Assembly (NCBI GenBank): GCA_029554345.1
Contig: JAKPJF010000075.1
Coordinates: 1-47,448 of the forward strand
Direction: 5' to 3'
DNA length: 47,448 nt
Origin: Spirochaetota bacterium
GTDB taxonomy: Bacteria; Spirochaetota; UBA4802; JAFGJZ01
Shown here one piece after another: positions 1,105 to 47,290 of the stretch; the stretch's first letter is position 1; every line of letters begins with the position of its first letter. The position numbers and the translations under genes were made by a program. Below the pieces are notes generated by a model that was not told the DNA's origin, searched no databases, and worked only from the letters and a program-made list of their open reading frames with translations.

Positions 1105-1580
1105 ATGACATCAACAACACCTAAATCATTCGGCGAAGCCGAATACCAAGGCGGTAGGATAACCGCCATCGAGGCGCTTCACAAGCAAACAGGAAGTTTG
1201 CAAAAAAGCGCCTCGTTAATAAGCGCAGACTATCGCTGCCATTACGTAGTAATGCGCGATAGGTCTGTCGCGATTAAGAGCGGGCGGGGATTTCACCGTC
1301 CAACGCTAACGGGCATCCTGCCCGCGTTGGATTTGCGTCATCCTGACGCTCAGGAAAAGGCTGGCCGTGTGCTCACGATGAGCACGAGCGAGGCGGCAAC
1401 ACGATGTTGAAAGCCGCCAAGGATGAAGCCCGATCCCTTTTGATCTTCTGCATGAGACCATTCAAAAAACGAATCTATAAGGCGAAGCCTTATGTGGTTG
1501 CCCAACTCATGGGCAGAAAGTGAACGGTTATCAAAGGCGGAGCCTTTGAAGCCCGCCCGGCTCTAGGGCATCGCGCATAT
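1105..1580. repeat. Palindrome-rich mosaic element, copy A
   Basis: About 475 bases of noncoding DNA made almost wholly of stem-loops. They are ATTCGGC-GAA-GCCGAAT (1128-1144); GGCGGT/ACCGCC (1150-1167); GAGGCGCTT/AAGCGCCTC (1171-1214) enclosing GCAAAC/GTTTGC; a two-part hairpin with outer arms 1227-1236 and 1256-1266 around CATTAC-GTA-GTAATG (1240-1254); CAACGC/GCGTTG (1301-1329) enclosing GGGCA-TCC-TGCCC; GCGTCA-TCC-TGACGC (1335-1349); GTGCTCA-CGA-TGAGCAC (1369-1385); GGCGGC/GCCGCC (1392-1418); ATAAGGC-GAA-GCCTTAT (1477-1493); TGCCCA/TGGGCA (1499-1515); and TCAAAGGC-GGA-GCCTTTGA (1531-1549). Its skeleton recurs at 35409-35630. A 101-codon reading frame runs through it, but it translates the palindromes and has no ribosome site, so it is not a gene. 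Confidence 0.8.
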
Positions 1581-1700: not shown

Positions 1701-3437
1701 ATGAAATTATTTAAATCATTGCTTGTTACGATTACACTTTTATCTATATTCTCGTGCGCGGGGGGTTCCTCCGGATCAGCAGGATCATAGATTCTGCCTC
1801 AGGATGAAGAAACGGCATCCCAGACAATTGGAGATACTCCTGCAGCTGCAACGGAAAATCCCGTAACGATTCCATCTGCAGACGAAAGCACTTATAACGC
1901 CGCAGTTCCGGAAAATGAAACTACCGCAGATTCATCCAAGGAGTCAGATACTGCCGATTCAACTAAGGAATCGAATGCAGCAGACGAAAACAAAACAAAC
2001 AACGCAAAACAGGACACCACTGTGCCGGGGAATAATGATTCAGGAACAGGTTCCGACAGCAAAACAGCGGACAATATTTCTCCTGACAACAATGAAACAG
2101 CATCAGACAAAACAGAATCCGCAGCGTCTGAAAACAAGAGTACTGAGTCTGCAGCAAATACCGAAACCGTAATTGCTTCTGACGATGAAATCTCCGTCGA
2201 TGACGATGAGGAAACAGCTGATACAGCATCTACGGCAGATGAGAAAGCGTTTAATTTCGCCACCAGCATCGAACTTCCTGCTCATATTGAATTCAAGGAC
2301 AAGGCAACAGGCAAAGCGATTAAAGGTGTTGAAATTTCAGTATACGATCCGGAAAATGAAAAAGTTCTCGCAACAGCTTTCTCCGACAGCAAGGGAATTT
2401 CCGAATTCATTATAACCGGGCAGTATACCGGTTCCCGGATAGAAATCGTTTTCAGAAAAGACAACTATACTCCAATTAGAGGATATTATATTGAAAGCAA
2501 CGATATAGCATCAATTTCCGAACTTGTACGCACGATTGAACTTAATCCGATTGCTTCTGAATCCGGGAAAGCAAAAGACGGCGGATCGATAATTGCGGAT
2601 AAAGACGGAGACGGAATTGCTGACGAGAACGACGAGTTCCCGGCCGACAAATCAATCGCGAAAGTTGAGAAGCACTCCTACATACTCGCCTTTGAAGACC
2701 GCTATCCCGGCATCGGCGATGCGGATTTCAACGATGCAGTCATCAAGTATGACATAAATGAATTCATTTCATCAGAAAATACAGTACCGAAAATCGTAAT
2801 TCGTTCTCAGGTTCTTGCAGCCGGAACTAACAAGAGCGCCGTATTCGCAGTCAACGTCTCCGGAAAGAGTTATACACTTATAGAAAATCTTAAAGCAGAT
2901 ATAGCTGACGGCTGGAATACCCGCTCGAACGACAAGTACCTTCCGGGTAAAGTCAACGAAATGGTAATCGAATTCAGCAAGCCTCTTGAGAGAAAAACAA
3001 TCGGAGCTGTTCCATATGACCCTTATCTTATTGCAAACGGCGCACATCATGCAAAAAAAGGAAAAATCAAGTCGGCAAACGAGATACACCTTAGTTTCGT
3101 AAAAACTCCGTATAAGAAAACCCGTTTTGCAAAAAACGGTCTCACTTACGCGCTCCTTCTTCCTTCTGACTGGGTATGGCCGGCCGAAAAAGTGGGCGGC
3201 ATTTTCAGAGCGTATCCGGATTTTGTAAAATGGTACAAATCAGGCGGAAAAACAAATACCGACTGGTATAAAAGTTATGATTCGGAACGGATTTTCAAAC
3301 AAGCCGTATCGACATCATCTATCGCAGGATACATTATGGATAATAAGCTGATGAGCACTTCTGTACTCATCCTCCTGATCGTCATGTTCGCCGGAATGAT
3401 AGTTCTTGTAAGACATTATAGACTGAAGCGCAACTAG
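1701..3437 (+). CDS. LruC-domain lipoprotein, interrupted by an in-frame TAG at codon 30
   Basis: The frame starts at an ATG behind a perfect AGGAGG (1691-1696) and encodes a lipoprotein signal ending LLSIFSC (Cys19). It then meets TAG at 1788-1790. The same frame stays open from 1791 to the TAG at 3435-3437, giving 578 codons in all. After the stop comes an acidic Ser/Thr/Asn/Asp linker of about 150 residues, a beta-rich domain, then a Ca-binding-like DKDGDGIADENDEFPAD and the LruC signature FEDRYPGIGDADFNDAVI. The C-terminus is a membrane helix (STSVLILLIVMFAGMIVLV) with a basic tail. LruC domains are known from secreted and outer-membrane proteins such as Leptospira LruC. A shorter product could start at the ATG at 2022 but would lack the signal peptide. 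Promoter, ribosome site and reading frame are otherwise intact, so this is a recent nonsense mutation, a sequencing error or, less likely, readthrough. Confidence 0.75.
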
Positions 3438-3457
3438 AATAACAACAATTCAATGAA

Positions 3458-3496
3458 CTAAAACAAAAGCACCGCTAACAGGTGCTTTTGTTTTAG
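3458..3496. terminator. Rho-independent terminator after the LruC gene
   Basis: A perfect 16-bp stem (3458-3473 with 3481-3496) and a 7-nt loop GCTAACA. The A-rich left arm and T-rich right arm let it work in both directions. Confidence 0.85.
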
Positions 3497-3574
3497 CTAC
3501 AATAAACAATTATGTTCACTCATCTAAAAATGTGTTGAGTTTTCATCAAGTTCCGGATTATTTATTCATATATT

Positions 3575-5293
3575 ATGAATATCGGCAATACATTAAAAAT
3601 AATACTATCGGCCGTTCCAGCGGCATTATTCCTATATCTTTACTGTAGAAGAATCGGCGAAAAAAAACATTTCCCGATTTACGCGGAGTCTTTCCTTCAC
3701 GGTGTGTTCGTATCATTAATCGTACTTCTTTTCAACAGTTTCACCCACGAAATAACCGTTTCGGCTCCTCTAATTGTCCGCAGTTTCGCACTTGCCGCTT
3801 TCATTGAAAAAATCACCGCACTTATTTCGATTTACATACTCATTCGCGGCAGCCGCAAACTGTCAATAAAACAGGGCATCTGCATAGGTATCATATTCGG
3901 TGCCGCATTCGGTTTCGTCGAGAACATTCAGTATTCGATCGCATACAGCGCGGATATTCTTTTACAGCGTATGTTTTTTTCAGTACCCATGCACATCATC
4001 ACATGCGGCATCATCGGATATTTTCTTTCATTGAAACGCATTCACTCAAAACGCCGGAACAGACTCAAACTGCTAACAGCGGCAGTTCTCATCCCGGTTT
4101 TTCTTCACGGTTTATTCGACTATGTGCTCTTTAAGGGTCTTCATGAAGAAATAACAACTCCCCTCATGATTACCGTAATGATCATTATTCTCGAATGGAT
4201 GATATCAATGGCAGTGACAATTCCATCGGCAATTACTCTCGCGGATAAAAAACTTGCATATGAAGAATGGTCGGTAATAACGCGGCATCAAAGGCATGAA
4301 AAATGGATAACCCGCACAATGGGAAAATCAGATGACAGCTATACCGGATTTCTCAGATTCGGAAGCGGAATATCCGATGTCATCATCGCCGTAGTACTGA
4401 TAGCATCTGCAGCAGTATTCATGGTCAAAGCCGACAGAATAACAGTGCTCTCTTCATTGCGCCTCGATCCCCGGGTTGTCGTAATGCTCTTCGTTTCATT
4501 TCCTCTGATGATAGCACTCGCATTCCTTATCAAAGGGATCATCAATCCTAAATACTTTACTGACGGTTTGCTTCGAATACCGGTAATAGCAAACGCAGTC
4601 ATATATCCTTACAGCGATGACGAAGAAACCTTTATAACATATGACATTACCTATGATCTTGTATTTCTCAAAACATATGATTTTCCGGAAACTGAAGTAT
4701 TCGACATGATGTTTGAAGCCGCTCACACCCTTTCTCCGATCATCACCGTAAAGAAGCGATGGGAGAACCGCTCAAACCCTTCCTATCCGTTCGGCGTCCT
4801 TGTAACTCCCGTATCGGGAACTGAATCCGCCCGAATGAAGTTATTCATTCGCCGATATCTACGTATAAAATACCTCAACGGCATTTTGTACGGACTCGGT
4901 GTTCCGGGCCGTGAAAGAATAAAGAGGCATTTCATTCGAACAGACTCCGTGATGAAGCAGAGAATCTGTTTTGAAAAAGGATCTCATATTTATAAAAAAG
5001 GAGATACGGCAAAGTACTTCTTCTGCATTCAAAGCGGAAAAGTTAAAATCTGTTTTGATTCCGGTGAACGCGAAATCAATTACATATTGAAACGCGGAGA
5101 ATATTTAGGGGAATCCGATGTCATAGGAGAGAGAATCCGCAAACATACTGCAATCGCCGAGAGTGATTGTGAACTCCTGGCTGCGGATTTATCGGAAATC
5201 AAAACACTCGTAGAAAACGACCCTCATTTTTCATACCTTGTAATCCTTTCGCTTTCACGTATAATTAAACTCTTCGAGGACGAAGAAAAATAA
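3575..5293 (+). CDS. PrsW-like intramembrane protease fused to a cyclic-nucleotide-binding domain
   Basis: A 572-residue membrane protein. The N-terminal half (about 1-230) has eight or so hydrophobic segments. It carries PrsW-family marks: FIEK (E78-K79), FGFVEN (E116-N117), H140 and HGLFDYV (H178, D182). The usual EExxK first motif is reduced to a single Glu followed directly by Lys, so catalysis is not certain. Two further helices lie near 265-285 and 300-325, followed by a soluble part. Residues 462-572 form a cNMP-binding (CAP/Crp-type) domain, with FEKGSHIYKKGDTAKYFFCI and RGEYLGESDVIGE. PrsW proteins are glutamic intramembrane proteases that start signalling cascades; here a nucleotide signal could gate the protease (inference). 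No clear ribosome site precedes the ATG. It sits between two terminated lipoprotein genes and is probably monocistronic. Confidence 0.8.
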   Translation: MNIGNTLKIILSAVPAALFLYLYCRRIGEKKHFPIYAESFLHGVFVSLIVLLFNSFTHEITVSAPLIVRSFALAAFIEKITALISIYILIRGSRKLSIKQGICIGIIFGAAFGFVENIQYSIAYSADILLQRMFFSVPMHIITCGIIGYFLSLKRIHSKRRNRLKLLTAAVLIPVFLHGLFDYVLFKGLHEEITTPLMITVMIIILEWMISMAVTIPSAITLADKKLAYEEWSVITRHQRHEKWITRTMGKSDDSYTGFLRFGSGISDVIIAVVLIASAAVFMVKADRITVLSSLRLDPRVVVMLFVSFPLMIALAFLIKGIINPKYFTDGLLRIPVIANAVIYPYSDDEETFITYDITYDLVFLKTYDFPETEVFDMMFEAAHTLSPIITVKKRWENRSNPSYPFGVLVTPVSGTESARMKLFIRRYLRIKYLNGILYGLGVPGRERIKRHFIRTDSVMKQRICFEKGSHIYKKGDTAKYFFCIQSGKVKICFDSGEREINYILKRGEYLGESDVIGERIRKHTAIAESDCELLAADLSEIKTLVENDPHFSYLVILSLSRIIKLFEDEEK

Positions 5294-5346
5294 GTGTTTA
5301 AATATATCACAATATCAACGAATCCGGCTGGACGGTTCTTTTTATT

Positions 5347-5442
5347 CGGTTATTTCAAAAAATCATTCATACGAAAATTAGTTTGACTTTTTTTATAAAA
5401 AAAGTAACTCTCTTGATGTTTGGTTTACTAATCAAATAACCG
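5347..5442. promoter_or_regulatory. Leader inverted repeat upstream of the LPP20 gene
   Basis: CGGTTATTT (5347-5355) and AAATAACCG (5434-5442) are perfect 9-bp inverted repeats flanking an A/T-rich stretch that includes TTGACT (5383-5388). They lie just upstream of the strong AGGAGG at 5457. An operator pair or long-range leader stem is possible; I recognise no known regulator site. Confidence 0.3.
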
Positions 5443-5466
5443 TAAAGGTTAATTTCAGGAGGAAAA

Positions 5467-5922
5467 ATGAAAAAAATATCATTTTCAGCACTAGCTTTGG
5501 TTTTCACTCTAAGCGTTTTCGCTGCATGTGGTCCAAGACAGGGCGGTCAGGTTAAAGGTGATTCTTACGTAAGCGAAGGATGGGTTAACGACAACACTTT
5601 CCGTGTAATCGCTACAGGAACTCCTAAAGCCACTCTTACAAACAAAATTCAGAGAAGAGGAACTGCGAAAGAAACTGCTATAATTATGGCAGAAAAAAGA
5701 GTAATCGAAAAATTCGTAGGTGCACGTGTTGAAGGTGCTGCCGGCGCTGCTGATTACGCTTCTACAGGCGTTGCAGTTTCTAAAGAATTCAAAGGTCTTG
5801 TTAAAGGCGGAACAATCGTAAAAGAAACTTATGATGATGATGACAACTGTGAAATCATCTATCAGGTAGAAAAGAAAGGACTCAAAAAAGAAGTTATGGG
5901 CGGAGCTACTGCCGTAGATTAA
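5467..5922 (+). CDS. LPP20-family outer-membrane lipoprotein
   Basis: A 151-residue lipoprotein. The signal peptide is MKKISFSALALVFTLSVFAA with the lipobox Cys at residue 21. The mature part has the LPP20-like pattern: a strand NTFRVIATGTP, a helix RRGTAKETAIIMAEKRVIEKFVGARVEG (about residues 58-85), then strands ending in EIIYQVEKKGLKKEV. The family, named after Helicobacter LPP20, holds abundant surface lipoproteins of unknown biochemical role. A perfect AGGAGG lies 4 nt before the ATG and a good terminator follows, so it is probably a highly expressed single gene. Codon use is simple and repetitive (AAA, GGT, GCT rich), in keeping with high expression. Confidence 0.8.
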   Translation: MKKISFSALALVFTLSVFAACGPRQGGQVKGDSYVSEGWVNDNTFRVIATGTPKATLTNKIQRRGTAKETAIIMAEKRVIEKFVGARVEGAAGAADYASTGVAVSKEFKGLVKGGTIVKETYDDDDNCEIIYQVEKKGLKKEVMGGATAVD

Positions 5923-12830: not shown

Positions 12831-14003
12831 TTACATCACCGATTTAATCGCGCCGGCAAGGCGTTCAATTCCTTCAGTAATAGTAGCCTCATCAACACAA
12901 CTGAAATTCAGTCTCATGGTAAACTTATCCGGATTAGAAGGATAAAAAGGATCACCTGGAACAAATGCAACCTTATCCTTAATCGCAATATCAAAAAGCT
13001 CAAGCGAATTGATATGACGAGGCAGTTTAACCCACAGGAACATTCCTCCTTCAGGTTCGGTAAATTCAACTTCTTCAGGAAAATATTTCTTTATCGCATT
13101 TACCATCGCCTCTCTTTGTTTTCTGTAAACAGCAAGAATTGTTGAAATATGTTTATCAATATCATTATTTCTGAGATAATCGAAAAGAACCCTCTGTGAA
13201 AAATAATTTGTATGAAGGTCTGCTGCCTGCTTAGCAACAATAACTTTTTCAAAGATGCTTTTCGGTGCGGCAATCCATCCGAGACGGAATGACGGCGCGA
13301 ATATTTTAGAAAAAGACCCGAGAAGAACAGTATTCTTTTCAAGATACTTTTTCATGGACTCCTGAGGTTTTCCTATGAAGCGAAGTTCTCCATAAGGATC
13401 ATCTTCAATAAGAACAGTTTTGCTTGGAGCAAGAACATCCGCGACCTCGCGCCGTTTTGAATCAGACCATGTTATCCCCGAAGGATTTTGAAAATTCGGA
13501 ACCGCATAAAACAATTTCGGATTTGATTCTATTGCTTTCTTTACATCTGATATGCAGGGACCGTCATTTTCGAGATCAACAGTTTTAAAATTAGCCTTAT
13601 ATATCGACAAAGACTGGATAGCACCGAGATATCCCGGGCGTTCAATTATTACATTTTCTCCCTCGTTCAAAACCGATTTGGCCATCAGGTCAAGACCCTG
13701 CTGTGAACCGTTCGTTATAAGAATTTCGTCTGGAGAAATATTGATACCTTTATCAGCATAACGTTTTGAAACAAATTCTCGCAAGGGTTCATATCCTTCA
13801 GTTGTACTATATTGAAGGGCATCCTTACCCGATTCATCCAAAACCCGGCAGCAAGATTCCCTGATTTCCTTAACCGGGAAAAAATCCCTGTTTGGAAGAC
13901 CTCCAGCGAAAGATATAACATCAGGCTGAACAGTTACTTTGAGAATTTCGCGTATAAAAGACTTGGGAACATCATTAATTCTGTCTGCAAATATATTTTC
14001 CAT
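12831..14003 (-). CDS. PLP-dependent aminotransferase (class I, LysN/MocR-like fold)
   Basis: A 390-residue aminotransferase. It has the N-terminal QPDVISFAGGLPNRDFFP, ILITNGSQQGLDLMAK (phosphate-side loop), AVPNFQNPSGITWS, LIEDDPYGELRF and the PLP-lysine motif GSFSKIFAPSFRLGW. The pattern fits the 2-aminoadipate/alanine/valine-type transaminases that resemble the catalytic half of MocR regulators, but there is no HTH domain here. The amino donor cannot be told. No Shine-Dalgarno is seen. TTGACA (complement 14035-14040) lies 31 nt upstream of the ATG, hinting at a leaderless mRNA. First gene of a two-gene unit with mazG. Confidence 0.9.
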   Translation of the reverse strand: MENIFADRINDVPKSFIREILKVTVQPDVISFAGGLPNRDFFPVKEIRESCCRVLDESGKDALQYSTTEGYEPLREFVSKRYADKGINISPDEILITNGSQQGLDLMAKSVLNEGENVIIERPGYLGAIQSLSIYKANFKTVDLENDGPCISDVKKAIESNPKLFYAVPNFQNPSGITWSDSKRREVADVLAPSKTVLIEDDPYGELRFIGKPQESMKKYLEKNTVLLGSFSKIFAPSFRLGWIAAPKSIFEKVIVAKQAADLHTNYFSQRVLFDYLRNNDIDKHISTILAVYRKQREAMVNAIKKYFPEEVEFTEPEGGMFLWVKLPRHINSLELFDIAIKDKVAFVPGDPFYPSNPDKFTMRLNFSCVDEATITEGIERLAGAIKSVM

Positions 14004-21278: not shown

Positions 21279-23090
21279 TCATTTAGTATTCAAAACTTTT
21301 TTAATAATATCAGTTAACTGATTTTTTCTATAAGGTTTTGGGAGAAATCCGTCTGCATCTTTGGGCACTTGTCCTTCCTGAGAAAAACCGGAAGTCATAA
21401 TGATTTTCGCTGATGGATCAATCTCTTTTATTTTCTCAAAGACAGTCAGACCGCTCATTTCAGGCATTACCATATCAAGTAATACCATCTTTATCTCATC
21501 TTTTTGTCTTCTTAACAATTCAAGCCCTTCAATTCCGTTTGATGCCGAAACAACTGCAAAGCCAATATCTTGAATCATTAGCCTGGCAGTAGTCCTCAAT
21601 ATGTCATCATCTTCGATAACTAGAATTTTCCCCGGCTCAGAAAAAGCAAACTCTACTGCATCGGCGAAATTATATATACCGTAATTTTTAGGCCCGGAAT
21701 ACAAAGGAAGATAAATGGTAAACACAGATCCGTTTCCGTTACTGCTTTTAAGTGTTATAGCGCCATGGTGACTGAGAACAGTTCCGTATACTGCTGAAAG
21801 ACCCAACCCGGTTCCCTTTCCGTCGTGTTTTGTTGTAAAAAAAGGTTCAAATATCCTGTCCTGAATCTCCTCCGGAATGCCTGATCCGCTGTCCATTGTA
21901 GCAATGCTGACATAATCACCCGGTGTCAGGGATAATTTATTCTCGTAACAAAACCCGGCATCCAGATACACTTTCCGCATTGTAACACGGATTTTTCCGG
22001 ATCCGCTGATTGAGTCTCTTGCATTTATCAGCAAATTAAGAAAAGCATTCTGAAGCTGACCGGGATCTCCTATAACTTCAAGGGGCTCCGGCGATATCTC
22101 GCGTTCAATCACTATCTGCCGGTCAATTGTATGTTCGGCAATAGATATCGTCGTATTAATAATATCCTGTATAACTACCGGTGTAGAAAGTATTTTTCCT
22201 TTTCGGCTGAAAGCAAGCAGGTTCTTGGTAAGATCTGCTGCACGGGATGATGATTTCAATATGAGATCAATAATCTCTCTCTGATCATCATTCAAACTGC
22301 CGCCTTCCATCAGAACATCAGCGGCTCCGATTACACCTCCAAGCATATTGTTAAGATCATGTGCAACTCCTCCTGCAAGCTGTCCGATAGCTTCCATCTT
22401 GTGAATATGATTTAATTGAGCACTCATAGATTCATACTCGCTCATATCCCTGTAAATTCCGACTGTTCCTATGATAGAGGAGTCTTCCCCTTTGATAACC
22501 GTCGTATTGTCACTGACCGGTATTGTTTGTCCGCCTTTACTTTTTAGAAGATATTTTCCCTGTGCTGAAACTGACACTTTGCCATTGATGATATCTCTTA
22601 CAGGATGATAATCGACGTCTTTCTTGGTAATCCGGTCTACATAACGGATCATATCCTGTACATTCCGGCCGATAGATTCATTCAAATTAAAACCAGTTAA
22701 CTTTTCCATCGCGTAATTTAAATGTGTTATCCGGCCTTCGTTATCAGTTGTTATTACACCATCAGCGATTGAATTAACCGTAACCCTCAGCCACGTCTCC
22801 TTTTCTTTTAAATCAAGAAGAACCGTATAATTATTCCAATTATTTATAAAAAAAAGAAATATCAGAGTGAAGAGTATCTCATTGATATCCTCAAGAGGAT
22901 CAAAGAAATCAGATATATCCGAGTGTTCCAGGATATTTGAAAATGAAACGAGCATATAAAAAATAACTATCATCGAAAGCGGAATAATTACATTTAAAGG
23001 AATGTTTCTCTTTCTGATGCGCACTGCCAAAACAACAATGGTCACGGACAAAATAAGCGTAGAAAGTATACTGGCTGTTAACTCTATCAC
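21279..23090 (-). CDS. Hybrid sensor histidine kinase (PAS-HisKA-HATPase-REC)
   Basis: A 603-residue kinase. Three membrane helices lie in residues 1-90. A PAS domain spans about 100-220 (GVITTDNEGRITHLNYAMEK). The HisKA box GQLAGGVAHDLNNMLGG carries His244. The ATPase follows with GDPGQLQNAFLNLLINARDS and GKGTGLGLSAVYG. A C-terminal receiver domain has the phospho-Asp at 539 (MVLLDMVMPEMSG) and Lys585 in PKPY. It would autophosphorylate and pass phosphate to its own receiver; a separate HPt protein such as that at 6021 may carry it on. The start is GTG at 23088-23090, overlapping the upstream gene as GTGA. The short sensor loops suggest sensing within the membrane or cytosol. Confidence 0.92.
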   Translation of the reverse strand: MIELTASILSTLILSVTIVVLAVRIRKRNIPLNVIIPLSMIVIFYMLVSFSNILEHSDISDFFDPLEDINEILFTLIFLFFINNWNNYTVLLDLKEKETWLRVTVNSIADGVITTDNEGRITHLNYAMEKLTGFNLNESIGRNVQDMIRYVDRITKKDVDYHPVRDIINGKVSVSAQGKYLLKSKGGQTIPVSDNTTVIKGEDSSIIGTVGIYRDMSEYESMSAQLNHIHKMEAIGQLAGGVAHDLNNMLGGVIGAADVLMEGGSLNDDQREIIDLILKSSSRAADLTKNLLAFSRKGKILSTPVVIQDIINTTISIAEHTIDRQIVIEREISPEPLEVIGDPGQLQNAFLNLLINARDSISGSGKIRVTMRKVYLDAGFCYENKLSLTPGDYVSIATMDSGSGIPEEIQDRIFEPFFTTKHDGKGTGLGLSAVYGTVLSHHGAITLKSSNGNGSVFTIYLPLYSGPKNYGIYNFADAVEFAFSEPGKILVIEDDDILRTTARLMIQDIGFAVVSASNGIEGLELLRRQKDEIKMVLLDMVMPEMSGLTVFEKIKEIDPSAKIIMTSGFSQEGQVPKDADGFLPKPYRKNQLTDIIKKVLNTK

Positions 23091-23401
23091 AGTCTTTGCC
23101 GTCTCCTCTCTTTTTCATCAGAGAGAGCTCCGTCTTTTAATGCATCTTTTCCGGTAAACTTCACAACGCCTGCAAGCAGAAAAAATGCTCCAATTGTAAT
23201 GCTTATATGCTCCAAAGCGTTGAAGATTTCAGAGAAATTGTACTCTTCTGCAACAGTAAATATATTAGAAAAAAGAATAGCTGTATATGCTAATATAAAA
23301 TAATTTTTTCCTTTAATCTTAGATCGGATTATAAGATTCCAGAATAGCGGATATCCTATAGCAAAAACTATCATTACGAAAATCTCTGTGGAAATCGGCA
23401 T
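23087..23401 (-). CDS. Small membrane protein coupled to the histidine kinase
   Basis: A 104-residue protein with three hydrophobic helices (about 6-24, 32-50, 66-82) and a charged C-terminal tail. Its layout resembles the membrane part of the downstream kinase (an NILEHSDISD-like segment in the kinase, NALEHISIT here), so it may be a duplicated or split sensor module. Its TGA overlaps the kinase GTG (GTGA), which makes co-translation near certain. A partner in signal sensing is the natural inference. No named family is recognised, and the ribosome site is weak. Confidence 0.65.
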   Translation of the reverse strand: MPISTEIFVMIVFAIGYPLFWNLIIRSKIKGKNYFILAYTAILFSNIFTVAEEYNFSEIFNALEHISITIGAFFLLAGVVKFTGKDALKDGALSDEKERRRQRL

Positions 23402-23555
23402 ATCCGCACCAGCCAGGAGAAAATTTCATCCATGCATAAAAGCTAGTGATAAGAATAACATCATTTTAGGCAGTCAGTCAAATTATTTTTTCAGAAGATT
23501 CTATTACTTACGATTTCAAGAAGTCAGGCTTATACAGCATCTGAACTTTTATATT

Positions 23556-24254
23556 TTATAAAATGAGCAGAATTTCATCAAATTCCTTTATCCTGAACGC
23601 ACAACTGTCATTACTTCCAAGACTGTTTTGCGAAAACCACAGAGCTTGCATTCCAATTTCCTGCGCGGGCATTATATCCATTTCCAGTCTGTCACCGACC
23701 ATCAAACTTTCATTTTCCATTGATCCGCTTTTTATTAATGCTGTCCGAAATATCTCATGGCTGGGTTTTCTTATTCCAATATCATAACTATAAAATTCAT
23801 AATCAATTAATTCAGACAAATTCAGATACTTTAATGTCACACTATGACATTGACCAGGAACAGTTGAATTTGAGATTATACCTGTTTTTATGCCTCTTGA
23901 TTTTATTTCACTTAAAACCTCTCTTATTCCATGCATCGCGACTGCAAAACGGGCACACGGCTCATGAAACGCAAGAATCAGTTCCATAAAGATATTGGAA
24001 TTTTCTTGAATTGCATCAGGCATAAAATGCATCATATCAAATTCCTTTTTACTTTCATTTCGTTTAGTCAAAACGTTTATCCATGGATAATAAAAAGTAT
24101 TTAACAATTTATCGAATTCAATTCCAATTTCGTATTCTTTCAGTTTTCCATGCATCTGAAAAAGTCCAAGAAAATCCTTTTCTTCGTCTGTCAAATTTCC
24201 CGAATGATAATCAACAATAGTATTACCAAGATCGAAAAAAACTGTTTTTATCAT
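23556..24254 (-). CDS. HAD-superfamily hydrolase
   Basis: A 232-residue protein with all four HAD motifs: FFDLGNTIV (nucleophile Asp near residue 7), TGIISNST (motif II), RKPSHEIF (motif III Lys) and MVGDRLEMDIMPA (motif IV). The helical cap suggests a subfamily I phosphatase such as phosphoglycolate- or nucleotide-type enzymes. The substrate cannot be told. A GGAGA ribosome site precedes the ATG. It appears monocistronic. Confidence 0.88.
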   Translation of the reverse strand: MIKTVFFDLGNTIVDYHSGNLTDEEKDFLGLFQMHGKLKEYEIGIEFDKLLNTFYYPWINVLTKRNESKKEFDMMHFMPDAIQENSNIFMELILAFHEPCARFAVAMHGIREVLSEIKSRGIKTGIISNSTVPGQCHSVTLKYLNLSELIDYEFYSYDIGIRKPSHEIFRTALIKSGSMENESLMVGDRLEMDIMPAQEIGMQALWFSQNSLGSNDSCAFRIKEFDEILLIL

Positions 24255-31461: not shown

Positions 31462-31766
31462 AATCCAAATTGGTTCTCCGAGTACCAAATTTGGTACTCA
31501 AACAGGAAAACTTTCTACTCCGGGAACCAAAATCGACACTCAAAACAAGCAAAACAGGCGCAAAAGACAGTTTTTCAATGTAAAGTAAGAAAATTTTTCT
31601 TCTATAACAGAAAAATTTGGTTCTCAGACAGGAAACATTGGTTCTTCGAGAACCAAAAAGGTCTCTCAGAATAGAAAACTTGGTTATCAGATAAGAAACA
31701 TTGGTACTCAGACAGGAAACTTTGGTTATCAGACAACCAAACTTGATTCTCAAACAAGAAAACTTG
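31462..31766. repeat. Degenerate 21-bp tandem repeat (minisatellite)
   Basis: About 14 imperfect units of roughly 21 bases with consensus near TTGGTTCTCAGACAGGAAAC. The clearest lie at 31617-31760. Because the period is a multiple of three, both long minus-strand frames translate into heptapeptide repeats (CLSTKFS-like in one frame, FLSENQV-like in another). Neither frame has a ribosome site or a start that fits, so coding is unlikely. Confidence 0.7.
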
Positions 31767-31780
31767 CTTGGACGGAGACA

Positions 31781-35162: not shown

Positions 35163-35408
35163 ATCAACATACACGGAGAGCATCATGAAATCAATATTTA
35201 CATGACCCTTACAATCTTTTTGAGCAATATTTCCAAAAATGTCAAATCCAAAAAAACCGCCTGCCGCAGAAAGAATTACGCGCGCCCTCACCCAGCCTCT
35301 GGCTCGCCCTCTCCCAGAATGAAGCTCAAATCGGCAAAGCCGATGAAGAAAAACCATTCCCGGGAGAGGGCTTTCTATCAATATTTTACTGATTCAGCAT
35401 GTATTAAA
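35163..35408. other. Noncoding stretch with one long imperfect hairpin
   Basis: No gene is seen. GCCCTCTCCC (35306-35315) pairs with GGGAGAGGGC (35362-35371), extended by AATG/CATT, around ATCGGC-AAA-GCCGAT (35330-35344). Part of the palindrome family but with a CAAAG loop. Confidence 0.5.
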
Positions 35409-35630
35409 TAATACCAACAACACCTGAATCGTCCGACGCAGTCGGACACCGAATAAGCGCAGACTTTCGCAGTTATTACGAAGTAATACGCGAAAGTTCT
35501 GTCGCGACAAAAAGCCGGGTAGGGATTTCAAAAGGGACAGGGCTGGCGACTGAAGCCCTGTCCCTTTTGATCTTATCGTATGAGACCATGCGAAAACCGG
35601 GTAAAGGGCATGGAATGCCCTTTAATGTAC
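35409..35630. repeat. Palindrome-rich mosaic element, copy B
   Basis: Shares its skeleton with copy A (1105-1580): AACAACACCT, a variable hairpin (GTCCGAC-GCA-GTCGGAC, 35431-35447), AATAAGCGCAGACT and a two-part hairpin (outer arms 35461-35470 and 35490-35500 around TATTAC-GAA-GTAATA, 35474-35488). Then come CTGTCGCGA, GGGATTTCA, a perfect 17-bp stem (35528-35544 with 35554-35570), TCCCTTTTGATCTT and ATGAGACCAT. Compared with copy A, stem bases differ in compensating pairs. The end holds AAAGGGCAT-GGA-ATGCCCTTT (35603-35623), part of a 31-base string repeated at 47253. Confidence 0.8.
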
Positions 35631-35759
35631 GTCCGACTCTCGGAAGAATTTATTGTTGAAATCAGTTAATTAATTCTTATTCTCAGCGAACTTCCTATTC
35701 GCTTCGAATGAGATTTTGAATTGATTTAACGCACCAACCTATGAGGTAACGCTTACATT

Positions 35760-35983
35760 TTCCCGCTATGGACTTCGTCCATCTCGCGGGCAGTCGGAAC
35801 GAGTCCGACAAACGAGACGCTTCAATATGCGACACGACGTCGCAACGAAAGCGTCTCATCAGTTTCCGCTTCCTTGCGGAAACGGCATGACACCATGCAA
35901 ACGACGAATACATAAGGCGGAGCCTTATGACAAAAAAAAACCGCGTTACAAACGCGGGCCGATCTTTAAGCCGAAGGCTTAAA
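35760..35983. repeat. Palindrome cluster downstream of gltD
   Basis: In order: CCCGC/GCGGG (35762-35790) enclosing ATGGAC-TTC-GTCCAT; GTCGGA/TCCGAC (35793-35809); GAGACGCTT (35814-35822)/AAGCGTCTC (35849-35857) enclosing TGCGAC/GTCGCA; GTTTCCGC/GCGGAAAC (35862-35883); GCATG/CATGC (35885-35898); CATAAGGC-GGA-GCCTTATG (35911-35929); CCGCGTT-ACA-AACGCGG (35941-35957); and TTTAAGCC-GAA-GGCTTAAA (35965-35983). The last ends 4 bases from the gltD stop. Confidence 0.75.
35931..35957 (-). terminator. Terminator of gltD
   Basis: On the minus strand a 7-bp GC-rich stem (35941-35957) is followed by nine T (A-run at 35932-35940). It is a standard intrinsic terminator 30 bases after the gltD stop. Confidence 0.85.
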
Positions 35984-45611: not shown

Positions 45612-45990
45612 ATTCAAAGGCTTCGCCTTTTGATCCGTTATTCGCATGGTGTCATGCAATACACAAAAGGTGCTCCGCACCTTTTAAATCCATTTGTCCA
45701 TTTCTTTTGCGTCGCCCAAAAGAAATGGACGAAAGAAAAGGGCGCCGCTGCGCGGTGCTTGTCTCGCGTATTCCTCGCACCGGCGTTGCCGGATGCTGCG
45801 GTCGCTCGAGTTGTGTCCGACTGCGTCGGACAGTTTAGGTTCATTTTCTGCTCACTCAGCTTTTGCGTCTGTATTGACTCTTTATCACTCACTCCTTGCC
45901 CAGACTTCCGACAACCATATCCTTATGCCTCATTGATTTCAATGACGACATAAGGCCGCTTATCCTAAACCGGATGGGAGTTTAGTTCGA
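45612..45990. repeat. Palindrome cluster upstream of hom
   Basis: No gene is seen here. The stem-loops are AAAGGC-TTC-GCCTTT (45616-45630); GCATG/CATGC (45644-45657, the same string as at 35885 in reverse); AAAAGGTGC-TCC-GCACCTTTT (45665-45685); a perfect 14-bp stem with arms 45696-45709 and 45717-45730; GCGCCGC-TGC-GCGGTGC (45742-45758, one G-T); GCA + CCGGC-GTT-GCCGG + TGC (45777-45795); TGTCCGAC-TGC-GTCGGACA (45814-45832); CCTTATG/CATAAGG (45921-45955) enclosing TCATTG/CAATGA; and CTAAAC/GTTTAG near 45966. Short frames through the palindromes have no ribosome sites. Confidence 0.75.
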
Positions 45991-46884: not shown

Positions 46885-46914
46885 CGTCAATCCAATATTA
46901 TAATCCAAAATATT

Positions 46915-47290
46915 ACAAAGGCGAAGCCTTATTCTACAAGTCCGATCTGTCCGCATTAAATTTTCCCAATCCTGACCCACAGGAAGAGAAGCGATCGTGA
47001 GCTCTGAAAGTAATTAACGAATGACAGAAAAAGCCTTTAAAAACTTCATCCGCAGAATAAGTTACGCGTATACTGAGCGAAGCGAATAAACGCGTAATGA
47101 TATTATCAATTAAATGATTCCCGAAATTACGAAAGTGCGCTAAGCACTTCAGAAAGATATGCATGAAAGAAAAAGAAATTAAGGGGTCTGGGGATATCCC
47201 CAGCGGCTTTTCTTTGCGGTACTTTCTTTTTGCCGAAAAAAAAGAAAGTACCAAAACCGGGTAAAGGGCATGGAATGCCCTTTGATTTTT
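46915..47290. repeat. Palindrome cluster near the right end
   Basis: No gene is seen. The stem-loops are AAGGC-GAA-GCCTT (46918-46930); TTACGCGT (47062-47069)/ACGCGTAA (47090-47097) enclosing GCGAAGC (47077-47083); AAGTGC/GCACTT (near 47132-47148); GGGGATATCCCC (47190-47201); a 14-bp stem with arms 47218-47231 and 47239-47252; and AAAGGGCAT-GGA-ATGCCCTTT (47263-47283). The last is inside a 31-base string identical to 35593-35623. Confidence 0.75.

Follow-up and report, generated by a model that had tools for sequence, protein, structure and literature searches.

The BOX elements of Streptococcus pneumoniae, of which 125 are known in one genome, are modular, non-coding, intergenic repeats with the order boxA-boxB(n)-boxC; they have a predicted secondary structure, vary in module number between strains, and are probably parasitic (PMC3049150). 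Intrastrand triplex motifs are also repeated in bacteria, and in E. coli they have been associated with local rearrangement (Holder et al. 2015, PMC4666352). Here we analyze a hairpin element of a Spirochaetota bacterium, which the original prediction had described as two copies of one structured nucleic acid with compensatory stem changes, possibly an undescribed ncRNA or mobile element.

Materials and Methods

The window, by which we mean the whole stretch of 47,448 nucleotides analyzed here, is one entire contig (C153) of a 3.03-Mb MAG that is 96% complete (G000, the source genome). The single congener compared with it was G001, a MAG only 66% complete (G039 is the same MAG). Chains of modules were mapped by shared words on stretches drawn from parts of G000 and G001, and because parts of each genome and not all of it were mapped, the copy numbers are lower bounds for both. 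Some junctions may be assembly errors, given that G000 and G001 are both MAGs and that many of the chains sit close to the end of a contig. The covariance search was run on genomes of the phylum (392) and of the order (46). Mismatch counts taken hairpin-wide were noisy, and family- and event-level counts of G·T and A·C were used in their place, on the premise that a strand-specific fold tolerates G·T better than A·C.

Results

Chains of Interchangeable Hairpins

The window carries four chains, whose approximate coordinates are given in Table 1. Copies A and B are those of the original prediction, and both are real, the number of two being too low for the window as for the genome. Their shared skeleton is present where it had been placed, with AACAACACCT, AATAAGCGCAGACT, CTGTCGCGA, GGGATTTCA, TCCCTTTTGATCTT and ATGAGACCAT found in both. 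In the two-part hairpin the paired changes that had been read are confirmed in the sequence, from ACTATCGC/GCGATAG to ACTTTCGC/GCGAAAG in the outer arms and from CATTAC/GTAATG to TATTAC/GTAATA in the inner arms, and the one-base bulge preceding TCT is real in both copies. The bounds proposed for copy B (35409-35600) were too narrow, as seen in Table 1. The 17-bp stem attributed to copy B exists there, and copy A, whose insert had been taken as fully different, retains its 3' arm only, the hairpin being broken by a nested insert.

Table 1. Chains in the window and their modules (chain bounds approximate).
Copy	Feature	Position	Strand	Remark
A	Chain 1b-i1-2a-i2-i3-4-7	1113..1495	+	
A	Slot-1 hairpin 1b, ATTCGGCGAAGCCGAAT	1128..1144	+	
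A	Inserted module i1, two hairpins	1150..1215	+	
A	Slot-2 two-part hairpin 2a	1221..1273	+	
A	Inserted modules i2 (1296-1333) and i3 (1364-1418), filling slot 3	1296..1418	+	
A	Slot-3 hairpin, 3' arm left, 5' arm replaced	1426..1446	+	By reading
B	Chain TM-1a-2a-3a-4-5-9-x1-x2-4-7	35238..35919	+	
B	Module CCCTCACCC..CCCTCTCCC..GGGAGAGGG, long-loop form of published E. coli triplex motif	35285..35370	+	
B	Slot-1 hairpin 1a, GTCCGACGCAGTCGGAC	35431..35447	+	
B	Slot-2 two-part hairpin 2a	35455..35507	+	
B	Slot-3 17-bp hairpin 3a, loop GGCGAYTGA	35528..35570	+	
B	Hairpin 4, TCGTATGAGACCATGCGA	35576..35593	+	
B	Hairpin 5, AAAGGGCATGGAATGCCCTTT	35603..35623	+	
B	Hairpin 9, TCCGACTCTCGGA	35632..35644	+	
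C	Chain 1a-2b-YRY-6-4-7	45613..45831	-	
C	Perfect pyrimidine (Y-R-Y) intrastrand triplex motif TTTTCTTT..TTTCTTTT..AAAAGAAA	45701..45739	-	
D	Chain acg-gtg-YRY-5	46912..47269	+	
D	Perfect Y-R-Y intrastrand triplex motif	47208..47247	+	

A chain is a fixed succession of slots with conserved short linkers between them, and for each slot there is a small repertoire of interchangeable hairpins from which its occupant is drawn. Optional leading modules stand at its 5' end, namely a triplex-type module with CCCTCNCCC and the TTACGCG and AAGTGCGC hairpins. Slot 1 is a short hairpin of several kinds, and slot 2 is the two-part hairpin, which comes in four forms. Slot 3 is taken by a 16-17-bp hairpin (five kinds, with loop GGCGAYTGA), by a pyrimidine triplex module, or by big multi-hairpin inserts, and the 3' tail is a series of small hairpins. 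Polarity is uniform, in such a way that orientation-bearing words inside one chain agree almost without exception. Between adjacent modules, 189 steps go forward and 3 backward in slot order, a ratio that shows how consistent the chains are and cannot serve as an independent test, the order having been derived from the same chains on which it is scored. The filling of the slots is highly varied, with 70 distinct module strings among 71 chains and 19 combinations of slots 2 and 3.

Two other features were noted. At 31486-31769 of the window there is a series of direct repeats of around 21 bp, AAACTTTGGTTATCAGACA-like, overlapping predicted reading frames of the minus strand. A conserved TTTTGGATTTGACA-N17-CATAAA-like promoter of a divergent gene, common to many loci, lies 5' of many chains (for instance at 35220-35250, minus strand); it may be the strong promoter of the species or a piece of the repeat.

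Copy Number and Turnover

Counted by origin, there are at least 54 non-coding chains in G000 and at least 28 in G001, most of them intergenic. A query of 261 bases gave 36 matches in G000 and 26 in G001, some of which are fragments of a single copy, and a covariance model, a kind of check proposed originally and here built on slots 3 and 4, matched 38 times in G000 and 30 times in G001. Word mapping found 78 chains in the stretches taken up first and 4 more in 654 kb of G000 not picked for hits, with zero chains in the reversed-sequence control.

Many chain flanks are orthologous between the two genomes (identity 80-98%), and the two genomes have unlike module strings at every one of the 11 orthologous chain loci that were compared. 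The clearest case is the pair L139/L157. Its flanks are orthologous on both sides, at 85-90% identity, and the chains agree up to slot 2d, with replacement of the linker, of slot 3 and of the tail. At L140/L150 modules 2c and 2a are exchanged in slot 2 while slot 3c is unchanged, and between copy C of the window and L160 tail modules have been gained or lost. The search for empty sites in a sister genome, also suggested originally, yielded one: a G001 chain of 835 bp (L143:1404-2238) is represented by around 40 bp in G000, with flanks 80-87% identical and the same two divergent genes on either side. At this single empty site neither a target-site duplication nor terminal inverted repeats, the classical marks of MITEs, were visible. 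In short, copies have appeared, disappeared or changed in size from one related genome to the other. The many further copies, the paired changes and the module swaps at orthologous sites strongly support the predicted structured nucleic acid with interchangeable hairpin modules.

Pairing and Covariation

Slot 2a was aligned from 14 distinct copies. Of its pair cells 99.6% are paired, three pairs (8 cells) are changed on both sides, and just 2 cells in 280 show a one-sided change or a break (one G·U, one broken). For slots 3 and 4 together (24 distinct copies) 97.2% are paired, with two-sided changes at 9 pairs (77 cells); the covariation score was 0.402, against 0.188 in shuffles, none of the 500 shuffles reached it, and with the partners slid it was at most 0.107. 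The outcome that would have refuted the original prediction, stem breaks matching compensations in frequency, is not seen in the aligned modules. The slot-3 loop GGCGAYTGA is kept in 24 of 24 aligned copies while the arms are swapped wholesale for other, fully paired ones, and pairs of the G·U type occur often in the modules of slots 3 and 4. This stricter conservation of the loop than of the arms looks, from the alignment, like recognition of a folded strand.

Triplex Motifs

In the 1.38 Mb scanned, all 16 perfect Y-R-Y triplex motifs lay within 300 bp of a chain, as did 5 of the 6 long-loop CCCTCNCCC motifs, and both kinds were absent from the reversed controls. Since all 16 Y-R-Y motifs are in or beside chains, the chains can be connected to the published intrastrand-triplex repeats of bacteria. 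Three blocks predicted to be capable of Y-R-Y or R-R-Y intrastrand triplex formation are present, and the strict TM-ECO pattern CCCTCNCCCN3-6GGGNGAGGGN3GGGNGAGGG, with its published short loops, had 0 matches.

Relatives in Other Families and in Viral Contigs

Among the phylum and order genomes searched, the only matches of the slot-3/4 covariance model beyond the genus itself were in genus g7, from another family, and in a single genome from a third family; both families belong to this order. Exact matches to the loop together with its inner stem, GGGCTGGCGNNTGAAGCCC, are present in the own genus and in g7, with 0 occurrences of the backwards pattern. The slot-2d joint CTGTCTGAG..CGAGTTCTGC was within chains in 6 of 6 occurrences, and its order-wide form GAGGACTGTYTGAG..CGAGTTYCGCAG was present in 9 of the 392 genomes searched in the phylum, each of the 9 belonging to this order, and in none of the controls. 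In some relatives the joint is constant and the arms, of up to 27 bp, are wholly different between copies, which is the rule seen in the chains.

Three loci of G016, from family f5 (L212, L221 and L228), carry long AT-rich palindromes of 25-27 perfect pairs. From copy to copy their arms show no relationship, but the apex, CGAGGACTGTCTGAG-GCC-GGC-CGAGTTCCGCAG, is common to them. Two IMG/VR contigs have hairpin-rich stretches beside a pyrimidine-rich hairpin, one with the same joint (L211) and the other with the same GGGCTGGCGATTGAAGCCC loop (L249). Fourteen viral contigs with the slot-3 loop were considered, and they are mostly chance matches without paired arms, L249 being possibly a true relative; the slot-2 motif was not found in viral contigs. 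Plasmid and phage comparisons gave no match.

Recombinase and Transposase Genes

Contig C180 of G000 has a number of tyrosine recombinase genes at short distances from one another (3760-5497, 12990-13478 and 22138-23740), possibly an island or a recombinase array. In L127 (G000:C183) an IS3-like transposase gene pair at 2915-4062 is inside or adjoins a chain that is cut off at 4103, and beyond the pair there are a broken recombinase and then another transposase-like gene. Of the tyrosine recombinases matched by the integron integrase model TIGR02249, the one adjoining a chain in G001 (C326) is an ordinary divergent neighbor of that chain.

Discussion

High copy number, non-coding and intergenic location and ordered modules place the element among repeats of the BOX/BIME-like kind. 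We favor, with a probability of around 0.6, that it is a non-coding mosaic repeat acting at the DNA level, in which recombination at shared linkers exchanges the modules. This reading is preferred because of the copy number, the module turnover and the lack of gene orientation. What is seen directly is the copy number, the intergenic place, the slot order, the covariation, the replacement, gain and loss of modules at orthologous loci, the empty site and the triplex-capable modules. Chains would spread as non-autonomous elements, and modules would be exchanged between copies at the shared linkers through recombination or template switching, in such a way that slot order would be preserved automatically. 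The hairpin and triplex modules would probably promote this exchange by stalling replication and by folding in single-stranded DNA, and the arms may be kept paired by template-switch correction, by selection acting on the single strand in its folded state, or by both. Any benefit to the host, such as the separation of adjacent transcription units, would be secondary. Against this reading stand that neither a mobilizing enzyme nor a target-site duplication was found, that the slot-3 loop is stricter than the arms, and that slots 3 and 4 have frequent G·U pairs, with a non-significant excess over A·C overall; the circular scoring of slot order and the risk of misassembled junctions count against it as well.

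The same fixed loops, together with strong covariation and those G·U pairs, would also fit a family of structured non-coding RNAs, in which transcribed chains fold and act through conserved loops and joints, with modules chosen per locus; the asymmetric joint CTGTYTGAG/CGAGTTYYGC, common to other families of the order, points in this direction too. We hold this for a possible explanation, at well below even odds, and the same applies to the ncRNA suggested originally. Chains keep no set orientation to neighboring genes, with 15 between divergent and 16 between convergent genes, 21 in tandem sense and 15 in tandem antisense. The excess of G·T over A·C was not significant at event level (29 vs 17, p = 0.10, in 340 module copies; an earlier cell-level count gave 67 vs 58). 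No match at gathering score was found in the window with Rfam 15, miRNA models matching at 35519-35581 far below that score, and no Rfam match (E up to 0.1) at the related loci of other families. Moreover, a composition that differs at each orthologous locus is not what one would expect of a functional RNA. A role as RNA is possible, and gene orientation, replication strand and the balance of G·U and A·C give no clear sign of it.

The suggestion of a mobile element is backed by the copy number and the empty site, though neither a transposase nor a target duplication was found. In its specific form, an element of a single-strand-hairpin recombinase, REP/RAYT- or integron attC-like, with an enzyme acting on the folded strand, we consider it unlikely, even if the imperfect hairpins with bulges, the single orientation per chain, the variable genes that copies adjoin and the many tyrosine recombinases of G000 would agree with it. 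Mobilization of the RAYT/IS200 type is disfavored by 0 matches of the Y1 (HUH) transposase model PF01797 in G000 and in the 66% complete G001, a model that matched in 5 of 14 control genomes. Regarding an integron, the cut-off of TIGR02249 is 265 bits, and the best pieces scored 134 and 96, with model positions 182-238 unmatched. These hits are generic tyrosine recombinases, and attC core sites were not noticed by eye. Chain orientation relative to the GC skew of the contig, as a sign of replication strand, was 14 vs 24, which is not significant.

Transcription terminators or insulators between genes, alike merely because terminators recur, are a very improbable explanation, for although chains are positioned between promoters and gene ends and the related hairpins of family f7 resemble bidirectional terminators in their A- and T-runs, most hairpins of the chains are by reading without long U-tracts, 15 chains lie between divergent genes, and the sequence shared over hundreds of bases and the strict slot order far exceed what terminators have.

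A broader proposal, which we put forward tentatively, is an order-wide Spirochaetota family of combinatorial folded elements, in which a dedicated factor would recognize the fixed loops (GGCGNNTGA) and the CTGTYTGAG/CGAGTTYYGC joint on folded RNA or ssDNA, with the arms free and the choice of modules functional.

Returning to the mosaic DNA repeat, to our knowledge few bacterial repeats have a grammar this clear, with strict slot order, multiple hairpin alleles per slot and turnover at every conserved site compared. The chains offer a natural system for separating template switching, hairpin/triplex instability and compensatory stem evolution, and their strong covariation is a warning that covariation by itself is no proof of an ncRNA.

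Literature searches with the joint and triplex sequences returned unrelated papers only, and nothing on modular palindromic repeats of spirochaetes. Among modular repeats, BOX is the nearest to the chains, being modular, intergenic and non-coding, with fixed module order and predicted structure (PMC3049150); the likeness is one of organization, and whereas BOX varies chiefly in the number of boxB, the chains have several alternative hairpins per slot. BIME/REP sequences with RAYT are similarly palindromic, extragenic, mosaic and of high copy number (PMC2817692, PMC3116915), but the chains have far more module types, a fixed order and no RAYT gene in G000 or G001. Integron attC sites resemble them as bulged hairpins in arrays beside variable genes; in contrast, the chains are accompanied by no integron integrase above cut-off and are not bound to one gene orientation. 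With the published triplex motifs the chains share perfect Y-R-Y blocks, intergenic repetition and a link to local rearrangement, and with TM-ECO the block order CCCTCNCCC..GGGNGAGGG..GGGNGAGGG, with longer loops (PMC4666352), the difference being that in the chains the triplex block is one exchangeable part of a longer array.
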